From NCBI GenBank assembly GCA_946482335.1, contig CAMLRG010000065.1:1-27920 (forward strand): DNA of 27,920 nt, given 5' to 3'. The position numbers were made by a program, and so were the translations under genes. The stretch's first letter is position 1. Every line of letters starts with the position of its first letter. Positions 3,653 through 17,722 of this stretch are shown here, piece by piece. The notes below the pieces were generated by a model. It saw only the letters and a list, made by a program, of their open reading frames with translations, was not told the origin of the DNA and did no database searches. Source of the DNA: an uncultured Duganella sp. (GTDB lineage Bacteria; Pseudomonadota; Gammaproteobacteria; Burkholderiales; Burkholderiaceae).

Positions 3653-6547
3653 ATGATGAAAGAAAACACCTTGTCCTATGCAATCCGCCTGGCATGCGCC
3701 AGCGGCCTGCTGGTGGCCGGCGCCTGCGCACCCGCCTTTGCCCAACAATCCGACGCCCCCATGCAGCGTGTGGAAATCACTGGCTCGTCGATCAAGCGCA
3801 TTGCACAGGAAGGCTCCCTCCCGATCCAGACCCTGAGCCGCAAGGACATCGAACAGACCGGCGTGAAGAACGTGGCCGACCTGATTGCAATTTTGCCGTC
3901 CATGCAAGGCATGATCACCTCGTCCGCTTCCATCAACGGCGGCGGCGGCGGCGTGCAGAGCGCCTCCATCCACTCGATCGGCACCGACTACACCCTGGTG
4001 CTGCTGAACGGCAAGCGCATGGCGCCCTATGGCACCGGCAGCGCGGTCAACCTGGCGTCGATCCCGCTCGCTGCGGTCGAAAAGGTCGAAATCCTGACCG
4101 ACGGCGCCTCCACCCTGTACGGTTCGGACGCCATTGCCGGCGTGGTCAACTTCATCCTGAAAAAAAACCAGACCGACCTGACGATCGATGCGACCTACAA
4201 CCGCCCGCAGCACAAAGGCGGCCAGAGCGCCAACGTGTCGATCACCAAGGGCTTCGGCGACTACCAGCAGGACGGCTTCAACGTGATGCTGGCGTACAGC
4301 CACGACCAGGCCAAGGCCTTGAACGCCGACCAGCGGCCTTTCGCCAACTCCGGCGTGGTCCAGTTCAACCACAACGGCAAGCAATATGCGACCTGGCAGA
4401 ACTCGATCAACTCGATCCCGGCCAATGCCGACGTGTATGACAGCGATGGCAACAACGCGACCTTCTCGCCCGACCTGGTCAACAATAACAAGTGCTCCGG
4501 CCCCAACACCTTCGCACGCGGCGGCGTCTGCCGTTACGACTACGCGGCCACCGTCGAACTGCTGCCTGAACTGAAACGCGACAGCCTGTTCACTTCCGGT
4601 GCATTGAAGATCTCCGACAAGACCCGCCTGAGCGGCGAATTCGTCTATTCCAAGTTCTCCAGCACCGCGCGCTACGCCGCACCGGCACAGCCGCTGACCA
4701 CCATGAGCACCGATCCGATCACCGGTGTGAAGACGGTCAGCCCGGTGTACATCGTGCCTTACCAGAAATCGGTTGAGCCGCTGCTGGCAGCGCAGGGCAT
4801 TGATCCGAGCAAGGTCACCGACGCCTACCTGTACTTCCGCGCCCGCGACGCAGGCGGCCGTACCGACGAGTGGGGCACCAAGGCACTGCACTTCTCGGCA
4901 GCGCTGGATTCCGAGATTGCCGACTGGGCCGTCAACGGGACTTACACCCACTCGCAGAACAAGCAGACCGACGATGCGGCTGGCGGCTACATGAGCGGCG
5001 ACAAGTTCGAAGCCCTGGTCAAGTCCGGCGCCTACAACCCGTACATCATCAACCCGAATGCCGCCTCGATCCTGGCGCCAGCGGTGCTGCGTGAAAACCT
5101 GGATACCATCAAGTCCAAGCTCGACGTATTCAGCGCCCATGCGTCGCGCGAAGTGTTCGCCATGGCCGGCGGCAACGCTGCACTGGGCCTGGGTGCCGAC
5201 TACACCATCCAGCGCTACGAAGACACGCCAAGCAAGATCTTGGTGGGCCCTGGCCCGGGCAATCCTGGCTGGACCGACACCATCATCGGCGGCGGCACCG
5301 GCTCCCAGCCGCTGGACGCCAAGCGCAAGAACTGGGGTGCATTCGCCGAGCTGCAGATGCCAGTGCTGAAGGACCTGGAAGTGACGGCTGCGACCCGTTA
5401 CGACAGCTTCGAGGCGGTCGAGAAGCGCAACACCAGCTATGACGTGAACGGCAATGCTTCGCCAGCCGGCAAACAGGGTAACGACGTCTCGAAAGCGACC
5501 TACAAGCTGTCCGCCAAGTGGCAGCCTTCGCGCCAGTTCATGCTGCGCGGCTCCTACGGCACCGGCTTCAAGGCGCCGACCATGAACAATATCGCCGACC
5601 CGCTGAAGAACGCCGGCTCGTCCAACTTCTTCGACTGCCCGATCAAGACCGCGACCGACCCGCGCTTCCCTTATTGCCGCGGCGTCCAGGAATACGGCTT
5701 GCTGACCGTGGGTAACCCAAGCACCGGCGCCGACGCACTGAAGCCGGAAACCTCGAAGCAGGCTACCCTGGGCATGCGCCTGGAGCCAATGGACTCGGTG
5801 TCCGTGGGCATCGACTTCTGGGACGTGAAGTTGAAGAACCAGATCCAGAAACTTTCGCAGGACATGCTGTTCCGCACCCCGGCGCTGGCCAACAAGTATG
5901 CGTCGATCTACTACGATCCGATCCAGAAATCGAAAGTGCTGGTGATGACGCAGTCGCCGCTGAACCTGGCCAGCTCGCACTACCGCGGCATCGATCTGGA
6001 CGCCACCTTGCGCAACGACACCCCGATCGGCAAGCTGACCACCAACTGGACCGCGACCTATATGCTGAAGGCCGAAAAGACCGTGCCCGACGCCGACAAT
6101 CCAGGCCAGAACCAGACCGAAAGCAGCATCGCCCGCTTCGACTCCTATGACGACGTGACCTTCCGCTGGATTTCGCGCCTGGTGTTCTCCCTGAAATCGA
6201 CCGACCAGTGGGCCAACTCGCTGACGGTGAACTACAAATCCGGGTACGCCGACAAGGAATACGTGGCGGACGATGGCCGTATCCGTATCGTCAATGCCGA
6301 CGGTTCCCTGGGCGGCTACCAGGACCTCAAGGGCCGGAAGGTCAAGGAGTACTACACCCTCGACTGGCAGACGAAGTACAACTTCAACAAGAACTTCGCC
6401 CTCACCGCCGGTATCCGCAACCTGCTGGACAAGGAGCCACCCCTGTCGATCCGCGACTCGGGCGGCGGCAACCAGGTGGGCTACGACGGTCGCTACACCG
6501 ACCCGTTAGGCCGCACCTTCTACCTGACCGGCAACTACAAGTTCTAA
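3653..6547 (+). CDS. TonB-dependent outer-membrane receptor 1
   Basis: Outer-membrane ligand-gated importer of 964 residues, powered by TonB-ExbB-ExbD. A signal peptide (1-30, cleavage after APAFA) is followed by a conserved RVEITGSSIKR segment (39-49), which begins the mature protein and may act as the TonB-contact region. The plug domain (about 50-170) shows the typical LVLLNGKRMAPYG, VEKVEILTDGAS and LYGSDAIAGVVNFIL motifs. The rest is a 22-strand-type beta-barrel with many aromatic and Asn-rich strands, ending in GNYKF with the terminal Phe expected for BAM insertion. The ATG at 3653 follows GGGAG. A strong terminator follows, so it is probably transcribed alone. The substrate is unknown. 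No Fur-like box was noticed upstream, which gives no support for iron control, and the neighbouring peptide importer makes a peptide or amino-acid-derived ligand possible. Confidence 0.95.
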   Translation: MMKENTLSYAIRLACASGLLVAGACAPAFAQQSDAPMQRVEITGSSIKRIAQEGSLPIQTLSRKDIEQTGVKNVADLIAILPSMQGMITSSASINGGGGGVQSASIHSIGTDYTLVLLNGKRMAPYGTGSAVNLASIPLAAVEKVEILTDGASTLYGSDAIAGVVNFILKKNQTDLTIDATYNRPQHKGGQSANVSITKGFGDYQQDGFNVMLAYSHDQAKALNADQRPFANSGVVQFNHNGKQYATWQNSINSIPANADVYDSDGNNATFSPDLVNNNKCSGPNTFARGGVCRYDYAATVELLPELKRDSLFTSGALKISDKTRLSGEFVYSKFSSTARYAAPAQPLTTMSTDPITGVKTVSPVYIVPYQKSVEPLLAAQGIDPSKVTDAYLYFRARDAGGRTDEWGTKALHFSAALDSEIADWAVNGTYTHSQNKQTDDAAGGYMSGDKFEALVKSGAYNPYIINPNAASILAPAVLRENLDTIKSKLDVFSAHASREVFAMAGGNAALGLGADYTIQRYEDTPSKILVGPGPGNPGWTDTIIGGGTGSQPLDAKRKNWGAFAELQMPVLKDLEVTAATRYDSFEAVEKRNTSYDVNGNASPAGKQGNDVSKATYKLSAKWQPSRQFMLRGSYGTGFKAPTMNNIADPLKNAGSSNFFDCPIKTATDPRFPYCRGVQEYGLLTVGNPSTGADALKPETSKQATLGMRLEPMDSVSVGIDFWDVKLKNQIQKLSQDMLFRTPALANKYASIYYDPIQKSKVLVMTQSPLNLASSHYRGIDLDATLRNDTPIGKLTTNWTATYMLKAEKTVPDADNPGQNQTESSIARFDSYDDVTFRWISRLVFSLKSTDQWANSLTVNYKSGYADKEYVADDGRIRIVNADGSLGGYQDLKGRKVKEYYTLDWQTKYNFNKNFALTAGIRNLLDKEPPLSIRDSGGGNQVGYDGRYTDPLGRTFYLTGNYKF

Positions 6548-6768: not shown

Positions 6769-6841
6769 CAAATGGGAGCACCAAAGCAGTAGTCAAAAGC
6801 TGTAGCTCGTTTTTTTGGTACGACAATTTGGAGAGAAAATC

Positions 6842-9625
6842 ATGATGGAAAAGATCATGGCTCGTTCCGTACGCCTGGTGTTTGCCGGCGGTATGGCAGC
6901 CACCCTGGCCGCGCCGGCCTTTGCGCAAGAAGCCAACGCCCCGCTGCAGCGCGTGGAAATCACCGGTTCCAGCATCAAGCGCGCATCCACGGAAACCGCT
7001 TCGCCGATCCAGGTCATCAGCAAGGAAGACTTGATGAAGTCCGGCAAAGCCACCGTGGCCGAATACCTGCAAACCTTGACCGTGGACGGCGCCGGTTCGC
7101 TGCCGACCGGCTTCGGCAACGGCTTTGCCGCCGGCTCCACCGCCATTTCGCTGCGCGGCCTGGGTGCCACCTCGACCCTGGTGCTGCTGAACGGCCGCCG
7201 CATGGCACCGTTCGCCCGCGCCGACGACGGCCAGAAGAGCTTCACCGACCTGTCCACCGTGCCGATGCAGATCGTCGAGCGCATCGAAATCCTGAAGGAT
7301 GGCGCTTCCTCGACCTATGGCGCGGACGCGATTGCCGGCGTGGTCAACATCATCCTGCGCAAGGACTTCGAAGGCTTGCAGCTGAAAGGCGATACCGGCT
7401 GGTCGCGCTATGACGACGCCAAACAGAACAAGGCGTCCATCACCTATGGCCAGGGCAACCTGGACGACAACAAGTACAACTGGGTGGTCAACGCCGAGTA
7501 CTTCCAGTCCGACCGCCTGAAGAACAAGGACCGTGCCGAACGCGGCCACATCGGCCAGGCCGACTTGCGCGAATTCGGCTATCCGGTGGGGACCCAGTTC
7601 GCCGGCGGCTACATCAGCGGCGTGAACAACGCGTCGCCAAGCCCGGCCGGCTCGATCCGCAACCCGGCCAACAACACCTACAGCTCGCTGCCGGGCTGCG
7701 CTTCGCTGAGCGCCACCACCAACCAGACCGGCGCCAACGGCGGCTGCCTGTGGCACCAGGACCAGTTCCGCGACATGCAGCCGGAAATCGAATCGGTCAA
7801 CCTGTACACCCGCGGCACCTGGCAGTTGAAGGACGATCTGCAAGTGTACGCCGAAGCCGGCTTCTCCAAGCGCGACACTTCGTTCACCATGACGCCGCCG
7901 TCGATCACCCCGACCGTGGCCTTCCCGCCGAACGCGGCCAACCCGCTGGGCTTCATCAACTATGGCAACTTGCCGCTGATGGCCGCCACCCACCCGCAGA
8001 ATCCGTACGGCGCGGCAGCCCGCGTGCGCTACAGCGCCTTCGACGTCGGGCCGCAGGTACGGACCGCCAACAATACGTTCAAGCGCTTCGTGGCCGGCAT
8101 CAAGGGTGCCGCCGCAGGCTGGGAATACGATGGTGGCATCACGCACTCGGAATCCAAGCTGCACCTCGACTACAGCGCCATGCTGAACATGAACGTGCTG
8201 CGCGACGCCCTGGGCAACCCGGCCTCGAAATACTTCCCTTACTATATAGGCGCGGAAGCGTCGAAGAACCCGGCATCGCTGTATGAAGCGCTGGTGACGC
8301 ACGCGATTTCCGATTCGACCACCAAGCTGAGCGTGATCGACTTCCACGCGTCGCGCGAACTGATGCAATTACCAGGTGGCAACCTGGGCCTGGCGGTCGG
8401 CGCCGAGCACCGCAAGGAAAAGGTGGTCAACCCGTCGCTGTCGGGCACCCTCGACGGTTCGGTCAATGCCAGCTACGTGGCCGCCTTCGGCGACACCAAG
8501 GTCAGCGCGGTCTTCGCCGAATTGCTGGCGCCGGTCTGGAAAGGCGTCGAGCTGAGCGCTGCCGTACGTTACGACAAGTACGACAACTTCAACTCCACCA
8601 CCCCGAAAGCCGGCTTCAAGTGGACCCCGGTGCGCAGCTTCGCCCTGCGCGGCACGTATACCGAAGGTTTCCGCGCCCCCGGCCCGGCCGAAGGCAGCCC
8701 GAGCTCGCAATCGACCGGCACCTCGACCGTGATCGACCCGATCCGTTGCCCGGGCGGCAAGCCGGCCGCCGGCGGCGCCACCTCCACCGATTGCGGCATC
8801 CCGGTCGCGGCCGTCAAGGTCGGCAGCACCGCGCTCAAGCCTGAAACCTCCAAGGGCTCGACCCTGGGCGTGGTGTGGGATCCGTTCGACGGCACCAGCG
8901 TGGCGATCGATGCCTGGAAGATCAAGCGTTCCAACGAGATCAACCCGTTGCCGTACAACGAAGCGGCCGCCCTGCCAACCGCAATCCGCAACGACAACAA
9001 CCTGGTCGTGAACGGCGTGGTGATCCCGAATTCGGGCACCCTGGTGCTGACCCAGGCACCGTACCGCAATTCCAGCTTCACCGAAGTGAGCGGCGTCGAC
9101 CTGGACATCAAGCAGCGCATCCGCCTGGGCGACTACGGCCGCCTGAACCTGGGCCTGGTGTGGACCCATACCGCGTCCTGGAAGCGCCATGAGTCGGCCA
9201 CCACCGTCTACCAGTACGCCGGCACCCACGGCAACTGCGACACCTCGAACTGCGCCGGTACCCCAAAGAACAAGGGCAACTTCAACGCATCGTGGGATTA
9301 CGCCGACCTGAACCTGGCCGCCATGGTCAATTACCGCGACAGCATGGCCAATACTTACTTCGCCGGCGGCCTGTGCGCCTCGACCCTGGCCAACGGCAGC
9401 GGCGCGCCGGGCAATTGCAAGATTGCCTCGTTCACCACGCTCGACATGTCCGCACGCTACAACTGGAGCCAGCAGCTGACCTTCTTCGCCTCCATCAACA
9501 ACGTGACCGACAAAGTGGCACCGCTCGACCCGCTGACCTACGGCGGCATGAGCTACAACCCGATGGACGCTTCCGGCGCCATCGGCCGCTACTTCAAGCT
9601 GGGCGCGCAGTACAAGTTCTTCTGA
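6842..9625 (+). CDS. TonB-dependent outer-membrane receptor 2
   Basis: A 927-residue receptor of the same type as its upstream neighbour. The signal peptide runs to about residue 28 (APAFA). It is followed by LQRVEITGSSIKR, nearly identical to receptor 1. The plug carries LVLLNGRRMAPF, VERIEILKDGASSTYGADAIAGVVNIIL, and the barrel ends in FKLGAQYKFF with an aromatic C-terminus. The ATG at 6842 (followed by a second ATG) is preceded at 8 bases by GGAG. An in-frame TTG at 6815 would add nine non-signal residues and was rejected. It probably imports a TonB-dependent substrate across the outer membrane. The extracellular loops differ strongly from receptor 1 (for example a Cys-containing stretch around PGCASLS), so the ligand probably differs. 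The gene has its own terminator. Confidence 0.95.
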   Translation: MMEKIMARSVRLVFAGGMAATLAAPAFAQEANAPLQRVEITGSSIKRASTETASPIQVISKEDLMKSGKATVAEYLQTLTVDGAGSLPTGFGNGFAAGSTAISLRGLGATSTLVLLNGRRMAPFARADDGQKSFTDLSTVPMQIVERIEILKDGASSTYGADAIAGVVNIILRKDFEGLQLKGDTGWSRYDDAKQNKASITYGQGNLDDNKYNWVVNAEYFQSDRLKNKDRAERGHIGQADLREFGYPVGTQFAGGYISGVNNASPSPAGSIRNPANNTYSSLPGCASLSATTNQTGANGGCLWHQDQFRDMQPEIESVNLYTRGTWQLKDDLQVYAEAGFSKRDTSFTMTPPSITPTVAFPPNAANPLGFINYGNLPLMAATHPQNPYGAAARVRYSAFDVGPQVRTANNTFKRFVAGIKGAAAGWEYDGGITHSESKLHLDYSAMLNMNVLRDALGNPASKYFPYYIGAEASKNPASLYEALVTHAISDSTTKLSVIDFHASRELMQLPGGNLGLAVGAEHRKEKVVNPSLSGTLDGSVNASYVAAFGDTKVSAVFAELLAPVWKGVELSAAVRYDKYDNFNSTTPKAGFKWTPVRSFALRGTYTEGFRAPGPAEGSPSSQSTGTSTVIDPIRCPGGKPAAGGATSTDCGIPVAAVKVGSTALKPETSKGSTLGVVWDPFDGTSVAIDAWKIKRSNEINPLPYNEAAALPTAIRNDNNLVVNGVVIPNSGTLVLTQAPYRNSSFTEVSGVDLDIKQRIRLGDYGRLNLGLVWTHTASWKRHESATTVYQYAGTHGNCDTSNCAGTPKNKGNFNASWDYADLNLAAMVNYRDSMANTYFAGGLCASTLANGSGAPGNCKIASFTTLDMSARYNWSQQLTFFASINNVTDKVAPLDPLTYGGMSYNPMDASGAIGRYFKLGAQYKFF

Positions 9626-9646
9626 TCCCAACCCTGGGATTTTCGC

Positions 9647-9674
9647 AAAACGGCACTTCGGTGCCGTTTTTTTT
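9647..9674 (+). terminator. Intrinsic terminator of receptor 2
   Basis: AAAACGGCAC / GTGCCGTTTT with an extra-stable TTCG tetraloop, followed by further T (eight in all), 21 bases after the stop codon. Confidence 0.95.
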
Positions 9675-10101
9675 CGCCCGGCCTTGTAACCGCCAGGGTT
9701 CCCTCGGCAACGGGCAAACGTTGAAACTGTCGTAGAAATAAGACACAAATGATGTAAAACAAGTCATTCATGGAATAATATTCAACTGAGTTAACGCCAA
9801 TTCCCCGTTTTAAATTCGGTCACCCCTATTGATTGCCGAATCCTCAACAAGCCATATTGGTGCATTACTGCGCCGAAGTTGGTCACATCCAGCGGCTTTC
9901 CCCGCCAATCCAGCATCTTCTCACAGCAGTGCACGCTACCTGCCTTCAACATTGACATAAATTCCACCGAAGTGATCTCATACCGCATGGAAAAAACGTT
10001 TGGCGTTCTTTTTCATTGGCGTCCATCCGTGGGCATCAAACAAGCAACAGTGCTGTAACCGCTGGGAACCGCACTGATCTTCAATGAGGGAGTTTATAAA
10101 A
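9675..10101. other. Long spacer before receptor 3 with lower-GC sequence
   Basis: About 430 bases between the receptor 2 terminator and the receptor 3 start, visibly richer in A/T than the flanks. It contains a 65-codon leftward open frame (9791-9988) and, at its end, AGGGAG (10087-10092), the ribosome-binding site of receptor 3. The stretch near 9800-9830 reads like the end of a decayed mobile element, but no terminal repeats or transposase motifs can be shown. No clear sigma70 promoter was identified. Confidence 0.4.
9791..9988 (-). CDS. Small open frame of unknown function, possibly a remnant
   Basis: An ATG-initiated frame of 65 codons (beginning MRYEITSVEF, ending TEFKTGNWR) lies in the AT-richer spacer, opposite to the receptors. 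It has two adjacent Cys, no signal peptide, no membrane segment, and no Shine-Dalgarno before its ATG. I do not recognise the family. It could be a fragment of a lost gene or mobile element, or a chance frame. Its only support is that it is open and lies in sequence not otherwise used. Confidence 0.2.
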   Translation of the reverse strand: MRYEITSVEFMSMLKAGSVHCCEKMLDWRGKPLDVTNFGAVMHQYGLLRIRQSIGVTEFKTGNWR

Positions 10102-13014
10102 ATGATGGTGGAAAACATTCTGTCCCGTTCCGTTCGCCTGGTTTGCGCCGGCGGTATGGCGCTGGGCGTTTCGGCTGCGTTCGCGCAAGATGCGCAACAA
10201 CCGATGCAAAAAGTGGAAGTTACCGGTTCGCGCATCCCGACCGCTAACCTCGAAGGCACCAGCCCGATCACCGTGCTGGGCGCGAAAGACATCAAGGTTG
10301 ATGGCGTCCGTAACGTCGAAAGCCTGCTGAACAACCTGCCGCAAGTATTCGCAGCGCAGACCGGCTCCGTGGCCAACGGTGCGACCGGTACCGCCACCGT
10401 CAACCTGCGTGGCCTGGGCTCCAACCGTACCCTGGTGCTGGTCAACGGCAAGCGCCTGCCATCCGGTTCCGCCGGCACTGCCGCAGCCGACTTGAACCAG
10501 ATCCCTACCGCCCTGGTGAAGCGCGTTGAAGTGCTGACCGGCGGTGCCGGCGCCGTGTACGGTGCCGACGCTGTGGCTGGTGTGGTCAACTTCATCATGG
10601 AAGACAAGTTCGAAGGCGTGCGCGTCGACCTGAACTACTCTGGTTACAACCACTCCCAGAAGGGCACTGGCGGCGTTGCCGACATCGTGGCTGGCCGCGC
10701 CAAGACCAATGCCAACGAATTCAAGGTTCCTGGCGACAAGGACTTCGACGGCATCTCCAAAGACGCTTCCCTGTTGATCGGTGGCAACTTCGACAACAAC
10801 AAGGGTAACGCCACCCTGTTCTTCTCGTACAAGAAAGAGCACGAGCTGCTGCAATCGGAGCGCGACTGGTCCGCTTGCGCCCTGTCTTCCTCCAAGGCCG
10901 GCTTTGCCTGCGGCGGTTCCTCGACTTCCGCGACCGGCCGTCTGACCAACACCAAGACCGGCGTGGCGTACACCACCGACGCCGCTGGCAACCCACGCGT
11001 CTACAGCAACGCAACCGACCTGTACAACTACGGCCCGATCAACCACCTGCAGCGCCCTGACGAGCGTTATGGCTTCAGCGCATCGGTCAAGTACGACGTG
11101 ACCGACAAGGTGCGCGTGTACGGCGACTTCGCCTTCCACGACGACCGCACCGACGCACAGATCGCCCCAGGCGGCATCTTCGGTAACGTCTACACCATCC
11201 GTTACGACAACCCGTTCCTGACCTCGGCAATGCGCTCGGCCCTGTCGCTGAACGCGCCTGGCGACGAAACCGACGTCGTGATCCAGCGCCGTAACGTCGA
11301 AGGCGGCGGCCGCGTAGCCTTCTTCTCCAACACTTCCTTCCGCTCCCTGTTCGGCGTGAAGGGCGAGATCGGCCCATGGCAGTACGACGTGTTCGCACAG
11401 ACTTCCAAAGTGCGTTCCGCCGGCTCGTCCAACAACTACTTCTCGAAAGACCGCGGCGCCAAGGCGCTGGACATCGTCAACGTGAACGGCGTGGCAACTT
11501 GCGCCTCCGTTGTCAACGGCACCGACCCGAACTGCGTACCTTACAACCCGTTCAAAGTCGGCGGCGTGACCCAGGAAATGCTGGACTACATCCAGATCCC
11601 TGGCCAGACCTTCGGCCACACTGCACAGACCATCCAGGGCGCGACCATCGCTGCCGACCTGGGCGAATACGGCATCAAGCTGCCATCCTCGTCCAACGGC
11701 ATCGGCGTGTCCTTCGGTCTGGAGCGTCGTACCGAAGAGATGGTGCTGAATCCTGACGGCCCATCGCAGAACTTCGACCTGGACGGCTCGGGTGGCCCAA
11801 CCACTCCTGTGTCCGGCAAGTACACTGTGAAGGACATCTTCGCTGAAACCCGTCTGCCGATCCTGGAAGACAAGCCATTCGCCAAGATGCTGGCAGCTAA
11901 CGCCTCGTTCCGTCGCACCGACATCGACACCGGCGTGAAAGCCAACACCTACGGTGCGGGCCTGGAGTGGGCACCAGTGGACATGATCAAGGTCCGCGGC
12001 TCCTACCAGAAAGCGGTGCGTGCACCGAACATCATTGAACTGTTCTCGCCATCCGGCAACAACCTGTTCGACATGGACGCTGACCCATGCGCAGGCGCAA
12101 CTCCGTCCGCTTCGCTGGCAGAGTGCGCACGCACCGGCGTGACCGCAGCCCAGTACGGCAAGATCCAGGATTCCCCAGGCGGCCAGTACAACTTCCTGGC
12201 AGGCGGCAATCCTAAGCTGAACCCAGAGAAGTCCAAGTCCAAGACCCTGGGCCTGGTGATCCAGCCGATGCCTAACCTGTCCTTCACCGTGGACTACTTC
12301 GACATCAAGGTGGAAGACACCATCTCCAACGTTTCGCCAGAAACGACCCTGGAGAAGTGCATGGCCACCGGCGATTCGAAGTTCTGCTCGCAGATTACCC
12401 GTGACTCCCTGGGTACCCTGTGGCTGCTGCCTCAGGCATCGATCGTTGGCACCAACACCAACATCGGTACCCTGGCAACCAAGGGTGTAGACTTCGGCGC
12501 GAACTACTCGATGAAGCTGCCTAACGCCATGGGCCGTCTGGGCTTCGCATTCAACGGCACCCTGCTGGACACCTTCGAAGTTGAAGAGCTGCCAGGCGAC
12601 GGTTCCTACGACTGCGTAGGCTACTACAACGGCGCCGGCAAGTGCGGCCAGCCACGTCCTGAATGGCGTCACAAGCTGCGCGGCACCTGGGAAACCCCAT
12701 GGGGCGTAGCAGTGGCAATGACCTGGCGTCACTTCGGCAGCACCCTGCTGGAAAAAGCCAGCGACAACCCGCTGCTGAAGGGCACCGTCAACGAAGTTGA
12801 CCGCAAGCTGCCACGTATCAACTACCTGGACCTGCATGCTGCCTACAACATGACCCGCAACATCTCGCTGTCGGCAGGTATCAACAACGTGCTGGACAAA
12901 GACCCACCAATCACCTCCCAGATTGGTACCGGCCAGGGTAACGGCAACACCTTCCCATCGATGTACGACGCGATGGGCCGCAAGATCTTCCTGAACATGA
13001 CTGCCAAGTTCTAA
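10102..13014 (+). CDS. TonB-dependent outer-membrane receptor 3
   Basis: A 970-residue outer-membrane receptor. The signal peptide ends around residue 28 (SAAFA), followed by MQKVEVTGSRIPTANLEGTSPITVL. Plug motifs include VNLRGLGSNRTLVLVNGKRLPSG, VKRVEVLTGGAGAVYGADAVAGVVNFIM. The barrel contains a repeated family segment KVRGSYQKAVRAPNIIELFSP and ends in FLNMTAKF. The ATG at 10102 is spaced 9 bases from AGGGAG. An in-frame ATG at 10084 would place that ribosome-binding site inside the gene and was rejected. Codon choice differs from receptors 1 and 2, with many CGT, CCA, CCT, GCA and GTT codons, as in strongly expressed genes or a gene of different history. The ligand is unknown. It converges on the hydroxylase pair and shares their terminator. 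Confidence 0.95.
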   Translation: MMVENILSRSVRLVCAGGMALGVSAAFAQDAQQPMQKVEVTGSRIPTANLEGTSPITVLGAKDIKVDGVRNVESLLNNLPQVFAAQTGSVANGATGTATVNLRGLGSNRTLVLVNGKRLPSGSAGTAAADLNQIPTALVKRVEVLTGGAGAVYGADAVAGVVNFIMEDKFEGVRVDLNYSGYNHSQKGTGGVADIVAGRAKTNANEFKVPGDKDFDGISKDASLLIGGNFDNNKGNATLFFSYKKEHELLQSERDWSACALSSSKAGFACGGSSTSATGRLTNTKTGVAYTTDAAGNPRVYSNATDLYNYGPINHLQRPDERYGFSASVKYDVTDKVRVYGDFAFHDDRTDAQIAPGGIFGNVYTIRYDNPFLTSAMRSALSLNAPGDETDVVIQRRNVEGGGRVAFFSNTSFRSLFGVKGEIGPWQYDVFAQTSKVRSAGSSNNYFSKDRGAKALDIVNVNGVATCASVVNGTDPNCVPYNPFKVGGVTQEMLDYIQIPGQTFGHTAQTIQGATIAADLGEYGIKLPSSSNGIGVSFGLERRTEEMVLNPDGPSQNFDLDGSGGPTTPVSGKYTVKDIFAETRLPILEDKPFAKMLAANASFRRTDIDTGVKANTYGAGLEWAPVDMIKVRGSYQKAVRAPNIIELFSPSGNNLFDMDADPCAGATPSASLAECARTGVTAAQYGKIQDSPGGQYNFLAGGNPKLNPEKSKSKTLGLVIQPMPNLSFTVDYFDIKVEDTISNVSPETTLEKCMATGDSKFCSQITRDSLGTLWLLPQASIVGTNTNIGTLATKGVDFGANYSMKLPNAMGRLGFAFNGTLLDTFEVEELPGDGSYDCVGYYNGAGKCGQPRPEWRHKLRGTWETPWGVAVAMTWRHFGSTLLEKASDNPLLKGTVNEVDRKLPRINYLDLHAAYNMTRNISLSAGINNVLDKDPPITSQIGTGQGNGNTFPSMYDAMGRKIFLNMTAKF

Positions 13015-13024
13015 GATCTTCGAA

Positions 13025-13044
13025 GTGCCGCCCACGGGCGGCAC
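13025..13044. repeat. Stem-loop just after receptor 3
   Basis: GTGCCGCCC / GGGCGGCAC form a perfect 9-bp stem with a 2-base centre, 11 bases after the stop codon. It has no T-run of its own and sits just before the terminator, so it may protect the 3' end of the receptor transcript or help termination. Confidence 0.6.
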
Positions 13045-13049
13045 GGGTG

Positions 13050-13081
13050 AAAAAAAACCTCGCTTCGGCGAGGTTTTTTTT
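13050..13081. terminator. Bidirectional intrinsic terminator
   Basis: Eight A, CCTCGC, TTCG loop, GCGAGG, eight T: a fully symmetric terminator that works on both strands. It ends receptor 3 rightward and the hydroxylase operon leftward. Confidence 0.95.
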
Positions 13082-13123
13082 ATTGGGGGGTCTGGCCCTT
13101 GGGCCAGGCCCCGGTTGACCGGT

Positions 13124-14290
13124 TTACATATCCCAATCCGCCCCGGCCCCGCCCCGGAATGCATCGATCGCCTGCAGCATCGACCCCACCAGCTGCTGCT
13201 CCTTCGGATTCAATTCCGGCCGCCAGATTTCCAGCAGCAGGATCACTCGCGTCTCATTGCTGCGGTTCCAGGCTTCATGCTCGATGGTGTCGTCGAACAC
13301 CCAGGCCTTGCCTTCTTCCCAGGTGCGCGTCTCATTCCCCACCCGCAGCTGGCAATTCGGCGGCACCACCAGCGGCAAATGCACGATCAGGCGCGTATTG
13401 ATGATGCCCGTATGCGGCGGGATATGCGCCCCCGGCCGCAGCAGCGAAAACAGCACGCTGGGCGAGCGGCCCGGGATACGCGGCAGCGGAACCCGCTCCA
13501 TCGCCGCCATGGTGGCCGGGCAGCGCGCCGCGTTGTCCGCGTTCAGCTTGCCGTCTTCCCATAGGTAGAAAGCGCTCCAATCGCGATTGTTGTGCATGCC
13601 GCCCCGGTTCAGTTGCGGGCGGTTCGGATCGGGCTTGATATAGGGCTGGAAGGCTTCATGGTCCTTCAGCACTTCCAGCACTTCGGCGCGGATGGCCGGC
13701 GTGGCCGCTTCCAGTTCCTTCAGCCAGGGGAAGTCGGCATTGTCGAAATACTGTACCTGCGGCAAGCCCGGAAAGTAATACAGGCGCGGCTGCTGCAGGT
13801 AGATCTGCTTCTTGCCCAGCAATAGGTCCAGCGAGGCGCGGAAGCGCGCCGCCTCGGGTGCGTCGTCCAGGCCGGCCTGCGCCAGTTGCTCCATCAGGTG
13901 GCCTTCAAAGCTGCCGGCCGCCTTGTCCACGATCTGCTGCGCGCGCTGCACCAGCGGCTGCAACGGCGCCGGCGCCGGCCGCGGCGCGGCGCGCAGGATG
14001 GCCCGCGCATAGTTGGCGGCGCCGTGCAGGTCGCCGCTGGCGGCCAGCACTTCGGCTTTCAGCGCCAGCACTTGCAGGTTGGCCGGCTCGTAGGCAAGTG
14101 CCTGGTCCAGCGCCGCCAGGGCAGCCGGGTGGTCGCCCATCCCGACGCAGGCGTGGGCCAGGCCGAAATACACGGACGCATCGCCATGGCCGGCCGCGGC
14201 CAATTGTTCGAAGCACGGCCGCGCGGACGCGGCATCGCCGCGGCGCAAGGCCGCCATGCCGGCATCCGCCAGCGCAGCTACATCTATCAT
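13124..14290 (-). CDS. Aspartyl/asparaginyl beta-hydroxylase family protein with N-terminal TPR-like repeats (A)
   Basis: A cytoplasmic protein of 388 residues. Residues 1-125 are Ala-rich helical repeats of tetratricopeptide type. Residues about 165-360 form the Asp/Asn beta-hydroxylase domain (PF05118 type), a non-haem Fe(II), 2-oxoglutarate oxygenase. Visible active-site elements are the iron ligand H293 in HIPPHTG, the second iron ligand H338 in FDDTIEHEAW and R348, expected to bind 2-oxoglutarate. The stretch GNETRTWEEGKAWVFDD closely parallels human ASPH. The substrate is not known: a protein side chain, a peptide or a lipid-linked acyl chain (as in LpxO) are all possible. The ATG at 14290 follows AGGACA and sits 9 bases after the stop of paralogue B, so the two are one operon. 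Proximity to TonB-dependent receptors hints at a role in uptake or modification of their ligand, by inference only. Confidence 0.88.
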   Translation of the reverse strand: MIDVAALADAGMAALRRGDAASARPCFEQLAAAGHGDASVYFGLAHACVGMGDHPAALAALDQALAYEPANLQVLALKAEVLAASGDLHGAANYARAILRAAPRPAPAPLQPLVQRAQQIVDKAAGSFEGHLMEQLAQAGLDDAPEAARFRASLDLLLGKKQIYLQQPRLYYFPGLPQVQYFDNADFPWLKELEAATPAIRAEVLEVLKDHEAFQPYIKPDPNRPQLNRGGMHNNRDWSAFYLWEDGKLNADNAARCPATMAAMERVPLPRIPGRSPSVLFSLLRPGAHIPPHTGIINTRLIVHLPLVVPPNCQLRVGNETRTWEEGKAWVFDDTIEHEAWNRSNETRVILLLEIWRPELNPKEQQLVGSMLQAIDAFRGGAGADWDM

Positions 14291-14299
14291 TGTTTGTCC

Positions 14300-15478
14300 T
14301 TACAGGTCGAAGCCGCCACTGCCCTGGGCAAAGGCATTGATGCCACGGGTCATCTCCGTGATCATAGCCCGTTCCGCTTCGGAAAGGTGGGGATGCCAGG
14401 TGTCGAAGATCAGCACCACGCGCAGCTTGTCGCTGTCGTTCCAGGCTTCATGCTCGATGGTGTCGTCGAAAGCCCAGGTCTTGCCGACCTGCCATTCACG
14501 CGTTTCGTTACCGACGCGGAAGCCGCAGCCAGCCGGCACGATCAGCGGCAAATGGCACACCAGCCGCGTATTGGCCACCCCGACGTGGGCCGGGATGCGC
14601 GTTTGCGGCTTGAGCAGGGAAAACATGGCATTGGGCGTACGGCCCGGCTGGTCCGGCTGCGGCACGTCCTTCAGCGCCGCCATGGTGCGCGGGGCGCGCG
14701 CCACATTGGCCGGTACCGGATCGCCATCCTTGAGCAAATGGAAGGCGCTCCAGCGCGGCGAGTTGTTCAATTCCGCGAACTGGTTGTGCGGCTGGTCGGC
14801 GCTATAGGTCAGGTAGGGCTCGAAGCCCTCCTCGCCTTCCAGGATCTGCAGGAATTCGTCACGGACCGCATCGGTCTGCGCATCGAGCGCCTCCATCCAG
14901 GGGAACAGCTTGCGGTCGAAGAACTGGATCGGCGCCAGGCCCGGGAAGAAGTAATTCATCGGCCGCGAATCGAAGCGCTGCTTGCGGCCGAACATCAGGT
15001 CCAGCGATTCGCGGAAGCGCTGGCTATGCTCGCCGCCCACGTCGCGCACCATCGGCGCCATATGGCTGTCGAGGAAGCTGCCGAACTGCTCGTTGTACTT
15101 ATCGCGGAAAGCGATCGCATGCGCGACGCGGCTGCGGAAATTCGGGTGCAGCTGGTCCATCGGCAGCGACACCTGGGTGGCGCCGCCGTAAGCCGCGGCC
15201 GCCGCATGTACCTTGCCCTGGCGTTCCAGCATTTCGCCGCGCATCAGCAGCGCCAGCATGTCGGACGGTGCCACGGTGAGGGCGCCTTTGAGGGCGGCTT
15301 CCTGCCCTGCGTCGTCGCCCAGGTTACGGCAGGCAACGGCCAGGTTGATCCATTGCTGCTGGTCCTTGCCATCGAGCTTGACCAAGCGTTCGAGCAACGC
15401 GCGCGCCTGCACCATATCGCCGGCCTGCACCGCGCGCTTCACGTCCGCCTCGAGGGCTGCCACTTCCTTGCTGTCCAC
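14300..15478 (-). CDS. Aspartyl/asparaginyl beta-hydroxylase family protein with N-terminal TPR-like repeats (B)
   Basis: A 392-residue paralogue of the downstream protein, first gene of the pair. Helical repeats occupy about 1-130. The oxygenase domain (about 175-365) carries the iron ligands in RIPAHVGVANTRL (about H298) and FDDTIEHEAW (about H343), plus the 2-oxoglutarate Arg in KLRVVLIFD. All three expected catalytic positions are present, so it should be active. No ATG is available near the start. The GTG at 15478 has GGAG 7 bases upstream, while the adjacent in-frame TTG at 15481 is too close to it. The two paralogues share the oxygenase half better than the repeats, as expected of a tandem duplication with diverged substrate recognition. 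aroG lies upstream on the same strand without a terminator between, so some readthrough is possible. Confidence 0.87.
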   Translation of the reverse strand: MDSKEVAALEADVKRAVQAGDMVQARALLERLVKLDGKDQQQWINLAVACRNLGDDAGQEAALKGALTVAPSDMLALLMRGEMLERQGKVHAAAAAYGGATQVSLPMDQLHPNFRSRVAHAIAFRDKYNEQFGSFLDSHMAPMVRDVGGEHSQRFRESLDLMFGRKQRFDSRPMNYFFPGLAPIQFFDRKLFPWMEALDAQTDAVRDEFLQILEGEEGFEPYLTYSADQPHNQFAELNNSPRWSAFHLLKDGDPVPANVARAPRTMAALKDVPQPDQPGRTPNAMFSLLKPQTRIPAHVGVANTRLVCHLPLIVPAGCGFRVGNETREWQVGKTWAFDDTIEHEAWNDSDKLRVVLIFDTWHPHLSEAERAMITEMTRGINAFAQGSGGFDL

Positions 15479-15504
15479 CAAACCGCTCCAATTGAAAGGC
15501 TTGC

Positions 15505-15581: not shown

Positions 15582-16640
15582 TTACTCGCCTTTCAGGCGG
15601 CGCTTGCGCACCGCGTCCGCCAGGTTTTCCAGCACCGCCACGCTGGTCTCCCAATCGATGCAGCCATCGGTGATCGACTGGCCATAGGTCAGCTCCTTGC
15701 CCGGCACCAGGTCCTGGCGGCCCGCCACCAGGTGCGATTCCACCATCACGCCCACGATGCGGGTATCGCCGCCGGCCACTTGCGCGGCGATGTCGGCGCA
15801 CACCGGCACCTGGTTTTCCGGCTTCTTGGAGGAGTTGGCATGGGACGCGTCGATCATCAGGCGCGCCGCCAGGCCGTAGCCTGCGATCGCCTTGCAGGCA
15901 TCTTCCACGCTGGCCGCGTCATAGTTCGGGGTCTTGCCGCCGCGCAGGATGATGTGGCAATCCTCATTGCCGTTGGTCGACACGATGGCCGAGTGGCCGC
16001 CTTTGGTCACCGACAGGAAGTGGTGCGGCTGCGAGGCGGCCTTGATCGCTTCCACCGCGATCTTGGTATTGCCGTCGGTGCCGTTCTTGAAGCCCACCGG
16101 GCAGGACAGGCCGGAGGCCAGCTCGCGGTGCACTTGCGACTCGGTGGTGCGGGCACCGATCGCGCCCCAGGAGATCAGGTCGGCGATGTACTGCGGGCTG
16201 ATCACGTCCAGGAATTCAGTACCGGCCGGCAAGCCCAGCTCGTTGATGTCGCGCAGCAGTTCGCGCGCCATGCGCAAGCCATCGTTGATGCGGAAGCTGT
16301 TGTCCATGTAAGGGTCGTTGATCATGCCCTTCCAGCCCACAGTGGTGCGGGGCTTTTCGAAGTAGACGCGCATCACCACTTCCAGGTCGCCCTTCAGGCG
16401 TTCGCGCAGCGGCGCCAGGCGGCGTGCGTACTCCATCGCTGCTTTCGGGTCATGGATCGAGCAAGGACCGATCACCACCATCAAGCGGTCATCCTGGCCA
16501 TGCAGGATGCGGTGCAGGGCGACACGGGCATCGGAAGCGGTCTTGGAAGCCGCTTCGGTGCAAGGGAATTCGCGGATCAGGTGCGACGGTGGCGTCAACT
16601 CCTTCATTTCGCGAATGCGCAGGTCGTCGGTACGTTGCAT
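15582..16640 (-). CDS. aroG: 3-deoxy-7-phosphoheptulonate (DAHP) synthase, type I
   Basis: A cytoplasmic enzyme of 352 residues that condenses phosphoenolpyruvate and erythrose 4-phosphate, the first committed step to aromatic amino acids. Its length matches E. coli AroG (350). Visible motifs: metal ligand C60 in IGPCSIHD, substrate-binding RVYFEKPRTTVGWKG (91-105), GARTTESQVHRELASGLS (162-179), GFKNGTDG (183-190) and the metal-site DASHANSSKK. D145, P149 and S179 correspond to E. coli D146, P150 and S180, where substitutions relieve feedback inhibition by phenylalanine, so this enzyme is probably Phe-inhibited. The ATG at 16640 follows CAGGAG. Its transcript begins with a Phe-rich leader peptide and an attenuator, so synthesis also appears phenylalanine-controlled. 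No clear terminator follows the gene. Confidence 0.97.
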   Translation of the reverse strand: MQRTDDLRIREMKELTPPSHLIREFPCTEAASKTASDARVALHRILHGQDDRLMVVIGPCSIHDPKAAMEYARRLAPLRERLKGDLEVVMRVYFEKPRTTVGWKGMINDPYMDNSFRINDGLRMARELLRDINELGLPAGTEFLDVISPQYIADLISWGAIGARTTESQVHRELASGLSCPVGFKNGTDGNTKIAVEAIKAASQPHHFLSVTKGGHSAIVSTNGNEDCHIILRGGKTPNYDAASVEDACKAIAGYGLAARLMIDASHANSSKKPENQVPVCADIAAQVAGGDTRIVGVMVESHLVAGRQDLVPGKELTYGQSITDGCIDWETSVAVLENLADAVRKRRLKGE

Positions 16641-16662
16641 GATGCTTTCTCCTGGTATGAGT

Positions 16663-16690
16663 AAAAAAAAACCGCCATCTCTGGCGGTTT
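16663..16690 (-). terminator. Attenuator terminator in the aroG leader
   Basis: On the minus strand AAACCGCCA (16690-16682), loop GAGA and TGGCGGTTT (16677-16669) form a perfect 9-bp stem running into nine consecutive T (16671-16663). It lies about 20 bases before the aroG start, between the leader peptide and the ribosome-binding site, so it must be conditional. Default folding would stop transcription before aroG. Confidence 0.93.
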
Positions 16691-16725
16691 GTCTTGGTAT
16701 CTGCTGGGATCTCGTTGCTACGTGA

Positions 16726-16781
16726 ACCGGCCGCTACTCCACCGCCTTTGGGTTGGAATTGCTAAAGTAAAAAAAGCCGGT
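16726..16781 (-). promoter_or_regulatory. Alternative pairing elements of the aroG attenuator
   Basis: ACCGGC (16781-16776) lies between the two Phe runs of the leader peptide and pairs perfectly with GCCGGT (16731-16726). GGCGGT (16746-16741), just before the leader stop codon, pairs perfectly with ACCGCC (16688-16683), the upstream arm of the terminator. A ribosome stalled at the Phe codons would leave GGCGGT free to take ACCGCC, an antiterminator. A ribosome reaching the stop codon would cover GGCGGT and let the terminator form. Confidence 0.72.
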
Positions 16782-16799
16782 AAAGAAGTGCAGGTGCAT
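16734..16799 (-). CDS. Phe-rich leader peptide of aroG (attenuation sensor)
   Basis: A 21-codon frame starting at ATG 16799 and ending at TAG (16736-16734). It begins MHLHFFTGFFYF and ends SNSNPKAVE. Five Phe and one Tyr fall within eight consecutive codons, much like the pheL leader peptide of E. coli pheA. The ATG is preceded by GGAA at 6 bases spacing. An in-frame ATG at 16811 would add four residues but lies only about five bases from the predicted transcription start. Its job is not the peptide itself but ribosome stalling when charged tRNA-Phe is scarce. The order promoter, leader peptide, alternative hairpins, terminator, aroG is the textbook attenuation layout. Chance is unlikely given the coincidence of all parts. 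Confidence 0.88.
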   Translation of the reverse strand: MHLHFFTGFFYFSNSNPKAVE

Positions 16800-16823
16800 G
16801 ACGAGTTCCATTGATTTCGATCC

Positions 16824-16852
16824 ACTATAACAACAGTTATCGCCTATTGCAA
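16824..16852 (-). promoter_or_regulatory. Sigma70-type promoter of aroG and its leader
   Basis: Minus strand TTGCAA (16852-16847), 17-base spacer, TATAGT (16829-16824). The predicted transcript start is near 16817, giving a leader of about 177 bases. The -35 hexamer overlaps the last two codons of the upstream PEP-CTERM gene. Confidence 0.75.
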
Positions 16853-17722
16853 GCCATTCCTTGCACGTCGCTTGCTACCCCGCGCGGCAAGCAGGCCCAA
16901 CAGGCCCAGCCCCAGGAGTGCCGACGCGGCGGGTTCGGGCACGGCAACCGGTTCGGTGCCGCCCAGCGCGCTGATGTAGACGGTGGTGTCGACGTCGTCG
17001 TCGCCCCGGTCGCCGACGATGAAGGTCAGGGTATGCGCCCGGTCGGTGCTCAGCCCGCTGACGGAGAAGGTCAGCCGCGGCGTGCAGGGATACGGGGACG
17101 ACGCGGGGGACGGGCACAGCACGCCATCGAGCTCCGTCCCGCCAATCACGGCCATCGCGGAATGGTCGATATTGACGGGCTGGCCGCCGACGAATGCAAT
17201 GTTGACGCCATCGATCAGGAGACCGAAGCCATCGACGAAATCGCCAACATATTCGGGAAACTCTTCGGAACCAAACACGGTATTGAAGAAGACGCTGCCG
17301 GTGCTGGTCGTGAAATTGATGTCGAGCTGCGTCACGTCGTAATACGTCGCGCTGCCGCCAATCGCAGCCAGGATATCTTGCTGGGCGCCGGTGCCGGTGA
17401 CGCCATAGCGGGTGGCGCGGTCGGCAGCCGTGTTGGGTCCATCCCCATAATCGAGAACATTGCCGGTGGACAGCATGATGCCGCCACCGATCTTGTAGGT
17501 GCCGCTGCTATTGGTGAATGTGCCGGTCGAGGCGCCGGTGGCATCCGCATGCCCGCTCAAGGTCGCGCTATTGACGGTAAAGCCAACCGCGCCGGCCGAA
17601 GCGGCCGCCGCCAACGCATTGGCATTGGTGTTGACCGTGGCGACGATTGCGTGCGCTGCGTTGCTGAAGATCAGGCTGCCGACCGAGAGGGTCAAGCCCG
17701 CAATGAGATGGAATGACTTCAT
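16844..17722 (-). CDS. PEP-CTERM sorted exported protein with choice-of-anchor L domain
   Basis: A 292-residue secreted or surface protein. The signal peptide (1-25, ends NAAHA) is followed by a beta-rich choice-of-anchor L domain (about 30-255) with its hallmark GSEEFPEYVGDFVDGFGLLIDG. The C-terminus is a sorting tag: VPEP (261-264), a Leu/Gly-rich membrane helix and a basic tail GSKRRAR. Proteins with this tag are cut and processed by exosortase (EpsH/XrtA) and are linked in the literature to exopolysaccharide and biofilm formation. The exosortase gene is not in the window. The ATG at 17722 follows AAGGGAA. The function of the anchor L domain is unknown. The stop lies inside the -35 box of aroG and no terminator separates them, so readthrough would enter the aroG attenuator. 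Confidence 0.9.
   Translation of the reverse strand: MKSFHLIAGLTLSVGSLIFSNAAHAIVATVNTNANALAAAASAGAVGFTVNSATLSGHADATGASTGTFTNSSGTYKIGGGIMLSTGNVLDYGDGPNTAADRATRYGVTGTGAQQDILAAIGGSATYYDVTQLDINFTTSTGSVFFNTVFGSEEFPEYVGDFVDGFGLLIDGVNIAFVGGQPVNIDHSAMAVIGGTELDGVLCPSPASSPYPCTPRLTFSVSGLSTDRAHTLTFIVGDRGDDDVDTTVYISALGGTEPVAVPEPAASALLGLGLLGLLAARGSKRRARNGLQ

Follow-up and report, generated by a model that had tools for sequence, protein, structure and literature searches.

The aroG gene of the window (the whole stretch of 27,920 nucleotides of Duganella DNA that was analysed) is preceded by what is very probably a ribosome-mediated transcription attenuator of the classical trp/phe type, a reading to which we give a probability of about 0.92 and which would place the entry enzyme of the shikimate pathway under its control. 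The full layout can be read in the sequence, comprising a promoter-like site, a leader, control codons, three alternative pairings and a position before aroG. We infer from it that the leader is translated, that transcription can terminate there in the cell, and to which amino acids the element responds.

Layout of the element before aroG

The components lie on the minus strand and are given here in the direction of transcription.

16847..16852, minus strand: −35 hexamer TTGCAA of the putative leader promoter (promoter pattern search)
16824..16829, minus strand: TG-extended −10 hexamer TATAGT, 17 nt from the −35 hexamer (promoter pattern search)
16806..16809, minus strand: GGAA, likely ribosome-binding site of the leader peptide (read from the sequence)
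16734..16799, minus strand: leader peptide gene, MHLHFFTGFFYFSNSNPKAVE, 21 codons with 5 Phe and 1 Tyr, from the ATG at 16799 to the TAG at 16734
16776..16781, minus strand: ACCGGC, outer 5′ arm of region 1, lying among the control codons and pairing with 16731-16726
16750..16758, minus strand: region 1, inner 5′ arm TTCCAACCC, pairing in the predicted fold with the GG..GGTGGAG stretch of region 2
16741..16746, minus strand: region 2, GGCGGT, forming the 5′ arm of the antiterminator with region 3 as its complement, towards the end of the leader peptide gene
16726..16731, minus strand: GCCGGT, 3′ partner of the outer 1:2 arm in the predicted fold, directly after the leader stop codon
16683..16688, minus strand: region 3, ACCGCC, 3′ arm of the antiterminator by its pairing with region 2 and part of the terminator 5′ arm
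16669..16690, minus strand: intrinsic terminator hairpin 3:4, AAACCGCCA GAGA TGGCGGTTT, 9 perfect pairs (terminator pattern search)
16663..16671, minus strand: nine T, three of them inside the stem, the expected end of the short transcript (read from the sequence)
16648..16653, minus strand: AGGAGA, likely ribosome-binding site of aroG (read from the sequence)
15582..16640, minus strand: aroG, DAHP synthase (3-deoxy-7-phosphoheptulonate synthase), 352 aa (NCBIfam NF006723)

The AroG model NF006723 scores the aroG product at 594.9 bits against a cut-off of 568, and the gene lies within the pathway of the amino acid that the leader would sense. The original prediction had described promoter-like hexamers, a 21-codon frame with FFTGFFYF and a 9-bp hairpin with nine T, on one strand and in a stated order, and all of these are present. 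The −35 hexamer falls outside the interval 16641..16830 that it had delimited, and it missed both the antiterminator (16746-16741 with 16688-16683) and the 1:2 protector hairpin, which overlaps the control codons. Because these two structures are there, the predicted element has the full trp/phe-type layout: a promoter and a short frame with its own ribosome-binding site, a leader enriched in codons for pathway products (5 Phe and 1 Tyr of 21, a conserved feature), and an intrinsic terminator ahead of the structural gene. An in-frame ATG at 16811 would give an alternative leader of 25 codons.

Within 16500-17000 we found one promoter-like site, against 0.2 expected from shuffles. A promoter-like score of at least 9 (hexamer matches, plus 1 for TG) was reached by 51 of 77 upstream stretches, comprising the window and 76 relatives, against 6 of 77 after base shuffling; the three Burkholderia-type upstream stretches shown score just 6. 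The terminator-like match by itself is no rarer than chance (1 found, 0.6 expected from shuffles), and it is its conservation that lifts the terminator above chance.

The gene upstream (16844-17722, minus strand) encodes a choice-of-anchor-L protein with a PEP-CTERM-like C-terminus, those matches being below their cut-offs. It runs in the same direction as the leader and stops 45 nt short of the leader ATG, an arrangement that would also suit a hairpin serving as the mere 3′ terminator of this gene, next to a frame that is rich in Phe by chance. We consider this exceedingly improbable, because a relative of the gene (tblastn, E ≤ 1e-5, in up to 2.5 kb of upstream DNA per locus, shorter in some) was found at only one locus, L002, among the best 80 of 587 loci, whereas the leader is kept in 77 and the hairpin in 78 of the same 80. 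A promoter-like site between the upstream gene and the leader likewise argues against it.

The last codons of the choice-of-anchor-L gene overlap the −35 hexamer of the leader promoter. On the other side of aroG, two adjacent minus-strand genes (13124-14290 and 14300-15481) have a weakly TPR-like N-terminus and are similar to OlsC/LpxO hydroxylases towards the C-terminus, with every one of these matches far under the NCBIfam cut-offs. Three consecutive TonB-dependent receptor-like genes lie on the plus strand (3653-6547, 6815-9625 and 10084-13014), again with all matches below the NCBIfam cut-offs.

In the mechanism that we propose, transcription would start shortly after 16824 (around 16817) and a ribosome would begin to translate the leader peptide. 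With ample charged tRNA-Phe, and probably tRNA-Tyr too, the ribosome would reach the stop codon at 16736 and cover region 2, upon which regions 3 and 4 would pair and RNA polymerase would halt near 16663. When charged tRNA is short, the ribosome would stall in FFTGFFYF and cover region 1, so that 2:3 would pair before region 4 is made and the polymerase would continue into aroG. If the leader is not translated, 1:2 and 3:4 would both pair and transcription would end.

Conservation, alternative pairings and predicted folds

As the set of close relatives we used the best 80 of 587 confirmed related loci, whose titles name mainly Oxalobacteraceae and Burkholderiaceae together with some metagenome-assembled genomes under coarse names. 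Among these 80, an aromatic leader with an ATG start is kept in 77 and a terminator of the form ACCGYY...GGCGGT is present in 78. Relatives had been named in the original prediction as the place to check for the Phe/Tyr codons and the hairpin, and they keep both, with some compensatory changes in the stems. Loci L023 and L059, both metagenome-assembled, have neither leader nor terminator, and L069 (Candidatus Burkholderia humilis) is without the leader; its absence at the three loci is either a true loss or a matter of assembly quality. The leader of L057 is present at a contig edge and gave no sequence for later counts, which therefore cover 76 relatives and the window. After removal of near-identical leaders, 49 distinct ones were left. 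Alignment A2 holds the 43 of Oxalobacteraceae type, including the window, and excludes the six of Burkholderia type; its row L010 is misplaced near the terminator. The peptide tail shifts frame in L004, L028 and L042, with the RNA element unchanged.

The RNA around the leader frame is strongly conserved in A2, as it would also be in a ligand-binding riboswitch or a protein-bound leader with an incidental short frame. That the element is of this kind is very unlikely. No Rfam family reached its gathering threshold in the whole window, Phe_leader (RF01859, gathering threshold 55 bits) included, and a permissive search of 16500-17000 gave seven matches, each below its own cut-off. In 20 order-level regions searched on the strand of the element, the sub-threshold matches to amino-acid leaders were to Phe_leader in two (L131 with 36.6 bits and L221 with 30.0, cut-off 55) and to Leu_leader in one (L131 with 32.7 bits, cut-off 50), both of which are ribosome-mediated. 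The aromatic identity of the leader also survives synonymous and Tyr-to-Trp codon changes, which argues against an incidental frame.

We weighed in addition whether the element acts on the translation of aroG instead of on its transcription. The hairpin lies only 23-28 nt from the aroG start in L001, L002 and L039, as such a device might, but the distance exceeds 100 nt in L034, L062 and L063. Moreover, a T-rich tail follows the stem and the likely ribosome-binding site of aroG in the window lies outside it, and we regard control at the level of translation as highly improbable.

We examined the three alternative pairings in the 43 sequences of A2. For the 1:2 structure we counted 20 cells with a change on both sides, where shuffles gave 7.5, and obtained a covariation score of 0.148, where they gave 0.107; for both measures none of 500 shuffles was as high, in tests that leave the kinship among the sequences uncorrected. 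One pair position of the outer arm is U-A in 26 sequences, G-C in 9, C-G in 1, U-G in 1 and unpaired in 6. The outer helix is paired in 66.7% of cells and the inner helix in 91.9%. Sliding the 1:2 partner by +1 or +3 gave 25 and 22 both-side cells, respectively, against 20 in the proposed register. Further pair types in 1:2 showed no excess over shuffles (332 of 500 as high), and the number of pairs changed on both sides exceeds shuffles weakly (6 against 4.3, with 24 of 500 as high). The covariation picture for 1:2 is mixed.

The terminator 3:4 is paired in 98.7% of cells of A2, with both-side changes at two of its nine pairs and four cells changed on both sides, against 0.4 in shuffles. The antiterminator 2:3 is paired in 99.6% of cells, yet it is invariant across the 43 sequences. 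We extended the comparison to 117 leaders, consisting of the window, the 76 close relatives and 40 order-level regions (sets that overlap, L131 and L070 being the same locus), and searched for the best duplex that the sequence following the aromatic codons can form with the terminator arm. The more distant leaders have 2:3 duplexes that are longer and different from the window type GGCGGT/ACCGCC and are still matched, namely CGCTGGCGG/CCGCCAGCG, AACTGGCGG/CCGCCAGTT, CCTGGCGG/CCGCCAGG and GCCGGCGGT/ACCGCCGGC. When the search was restricted to the 5′ half of the hairpin, the duplex started 3-18 nt past the last aromatic codon in all 117 leaders; with a slightly longer arm, the best duplex of L171 lies elsewhere and that of L221 has only 4 bp. 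Because 6% of base shuffles on average match equally well, a single 6-bp match is not rare, and it is the shared position and the matched changes that carry weight, not any one duplex.

Fold predictions for the 117 leaders agree with an antiterminator that is mutually exclusive with the terminator and that ribosome stalling would release. The terminator formed in 113 of 117 folds without a ribosome and in 116 when the ribosome stood at the stop codon. When it was placed on the middle aromatic codon, with region 2 free and region 4 absent, the antiterminator formed in 115; region 2 was always kept free in these calculations, even within reach of the ribosome footprint, which favours the antiterminator. 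Once region 4 was added to the state with a stalled ribosome, the fold of lowest energy was the terminator in 102 leaders, including that of the window, and the antiterminator in 15. Since the terminator wins at equilibrium in 102 of 117, the energies suggest that read-through would have to be kinetic, with the antiterminator forming first.

Control codons and the signals they may read

In 60 distinct leaders TTTAGC lies in frame. With its TTT as anchor, codon −1 is TAC in 43, TAT in 8, TGG in 7 and another codon in 2; it thus encodes Tyr in 51 and Trp in 7, with TGG two base changes away from TAC and TAT. Codon −2 is Phe (TTT) in 56 of the 60 and codon −6 is Phe in 54. In these sequences, aromatic identity is preserved through synonymous and Tyr-to-Trp codon changes.

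Phe occurs in all of 114 distinct leaders, Tyr in 108, Trp in 41 and all three in 38, counts that are inflated by related sequences and uncorrected for kinship. Among residues other than Phe and Tyr, Trp accounts for 30 of 302 within the aromatic stretch and for 18 of 1300 elsewhere in the leaders, and 12 of these 18 stand immediately past the last Phe or Tyr. The original prediction held that the element senses charged tRNA-Phe. Given the Tyr codons, and the Trp codons in 41 of 114 leaders, Phe may be one of up to three signals. With control codons for Phe and Tyr, and for Trp in some relatives, the name ‘phenylalanine attenuator’ may be too narrow, and we suggest, as a hypothesis, extending the reading to aromatic amino acids in general.

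The element could accordingly be a real attenuator that monitors the aromatic amino acids as a whole, Phe being joined as a signal by Tyr and, in relatives, by Trp. The frequencies of Tyr and Trp among the 114 leaders, the enrichment of Trp inside the aromatic stretch and the replacement of TAC or TAT by TGG at codon −1 all point that way, and we hold this possible, at somewhat less than even odds. Against it, the leader of the window has 5 Phe, 1 Tyr and no Trp codons, related sequences swell the codon counts, and the FYF leader of Corynebacterium glutamicum is reported to respond to Phe and not to Tyr (PMC11802643). Trp codons were also considered as a mark of genomes with a single DAHP synthase gene, and we rejected this, as the two were not linked (12 of 29 against 7 of 19 genomes, p = 1); this lack of a link likewise speaks against Trp as a signal. 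The aromatic runs of relatives include YFWYYF, FYFYFFW and YFFWYWF, and such leaders offer a natural series for determining which charged tRNAs one attenuator reads.

The Phe codons of 77 leaders (the window and 76 loci) are TTT in 275 cases and TTC in 89, and those of aroG in 57 relatives are TTT in 74 and TTC in 297, the sequences being related. Possible readings of the TTT preference in the leaders are slow codons, a lack of RNA structure, or both. We set aside a tally of Phe codons in the genes of the window, at least two of whose eight frames (8369-9748 and 10081-13164) are antisense to likelier genes.

Distribution and comparison with known systems

Of 250 genomes drawn from the order to which Pseudoduganella violaceinigra belongs, 191 have AroG-type genes (E ≤ 1e-60). 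We took 100 upstream regions, those of the best-scoring AroG-type matches with the exception of G001 and G008, so that the sample leans to close relatives; the region of L153 is shortened by a contig end. A leader together with a hairpin was found in 40 of the 100, against 5 of 1000 dinucleotide shuffles, and a leader alone in 47 of 100, against 97 of 1000; the other 60 of these best-scoring regions had no leader with hairpin by the detection criteria used. The prediction of an attenuator before aroG was thus borne out at the level of sequence, by its parts, by its conservation and by this excess over shuffles.

A covariance model built from A2, for which 12 first-look candidates per genome were scored under strict filters, gave matches in 47 of 250 genomes (E ≤ 0.01), one per genome. 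Of these matches, 42 lie just 5′ of an AroG-type gene, which was recognised by place for 32 and by tblastn for 10. We took the other five (G177, G220, G105, G170 and G132), away from AroG genes, as chance: tblastn found no AroG-type gene near them in 1.3-2 kb (L244, from G220, ends at a contig edge), four are without an aromatic leader, and the frame flagged in L244 is unlike one. Judged from these sequences, the predicted attenuator is widespread in the order as sampled and far from universal. In part of a large environmental order, it would make a translation-coupled RNA switch the control point for entry into the shikimate pathway, and the covariance model offers a means of annotating it.

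None of five loci of a second DAHP synthase paralogue (L090-L094) has the leader. A class-wide draw, in which 101 of 143 genomes matched, added 29 new loci to the scan (L254-L282), and these held no credible leader; L258 and L276 have a frame and no hairpin, and we judged L264, flagged for a GTG-started frame of 45 residues with FWFKF and a hairpin followed by ATGATTT, to be chance. Tandem DAHP synthase genes were seen at G240:C1:3050112-3052290, G151:C1:2562489-2564629 and G030:C1:2636366-2638526, and the pairs of G240 and G151 have on their 5′ side a leader that contains codons for Phe, Tyr and Trp.

In E. coli, aroG is controlled by TyrR. That system shares with the present one the enzyme and a related end-product signal, and differs in using a DNA-binding repressor. 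Of 100 genomes of the order, none passed the cut-off of the TyrR-type HTH model TIGR04381 and 2 gave weaker matches, with a positive E. coli control. TyrR is reported to be absent from classes other than the gammaproteobacteria (PMC5343134). Nothing that we saw supports the replacement of a repressor by attenuation or a direction for such a change, and this part of the original prediction, that attenuation had taken over from a repressor, should be dropped.

The E. coli trp leader, the textbook attenuator, has the alternative pairings 1:2, 2:3 and 3:4. The leader of the window has the same three predicted pairings, with its stop codon near region 2, and differs in its codons, which are for Phe and Tyr instead of Trp, and in the gene controlled, aroG. 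E. coli pheL-pheA and pheST, which use terminator and antiterminator pairings, resemble it in a Phe-codon leader peptide, a terminator and an antiterminator (Rfam Phe_leader, RF01859), but they control the Phe branch or the Phe-tRNA synthetase, whereas the element described here precedes the first common enzyme.

Attenuators of proteobacteria were reportedly treated by Vitreschak in 2004. We found no description of an aroG attenuator in Betaproteobacteria among PMC titles and the beginnings of abstracts, a scope outside which most subscription papers fall. The predicted aroG attenuator thus appears to follow a known principle, with no earlier description found in this group. Neshat et al. are said to have described, in 2014, the aroR leader of the aroF operon of C. 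glutamicum. As reported, aroR encodes a Phe-Tyr-Phe leader peptide and precedes aroF, a DAHP synthase gene (PMC11802643, PMC4046766), and its attenuation is said to be relieved by limitation of Phe, with no response to Tyr (PMC11802643). As described there, aroR is like the predicted element in its leader, its DAHP synthase gene and its attenuation, and differs in belonging to an actinobacterium, of another phylum, and in its short FYF against FFTGFFYF here. With aroR-aroF, the attenuation of a DAHP synthase gene already has a reported precedent. For Burkholderia cenocepacia, 82 short 5′UTR transcripts have been reported (PMC5688073).

We tentatively propose, as an idea that falls a little short of being probable, that in Burkholderiales the leader before aroG acts as a multivalent attenuator, with codons for Phe, Tyr and, in many lineages, Trp. 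If so, running short of any one of these amino acids would release the shared first enzyme. In E. coli, the control of DAHP synthase by the three aromatics is divided among three isoenzymes. The ilv leaders of enterics, which serve the branched-chain amino acids, would be the counterpart of such a multivalent aroG leader, with several end-product amino acids read by each leader.
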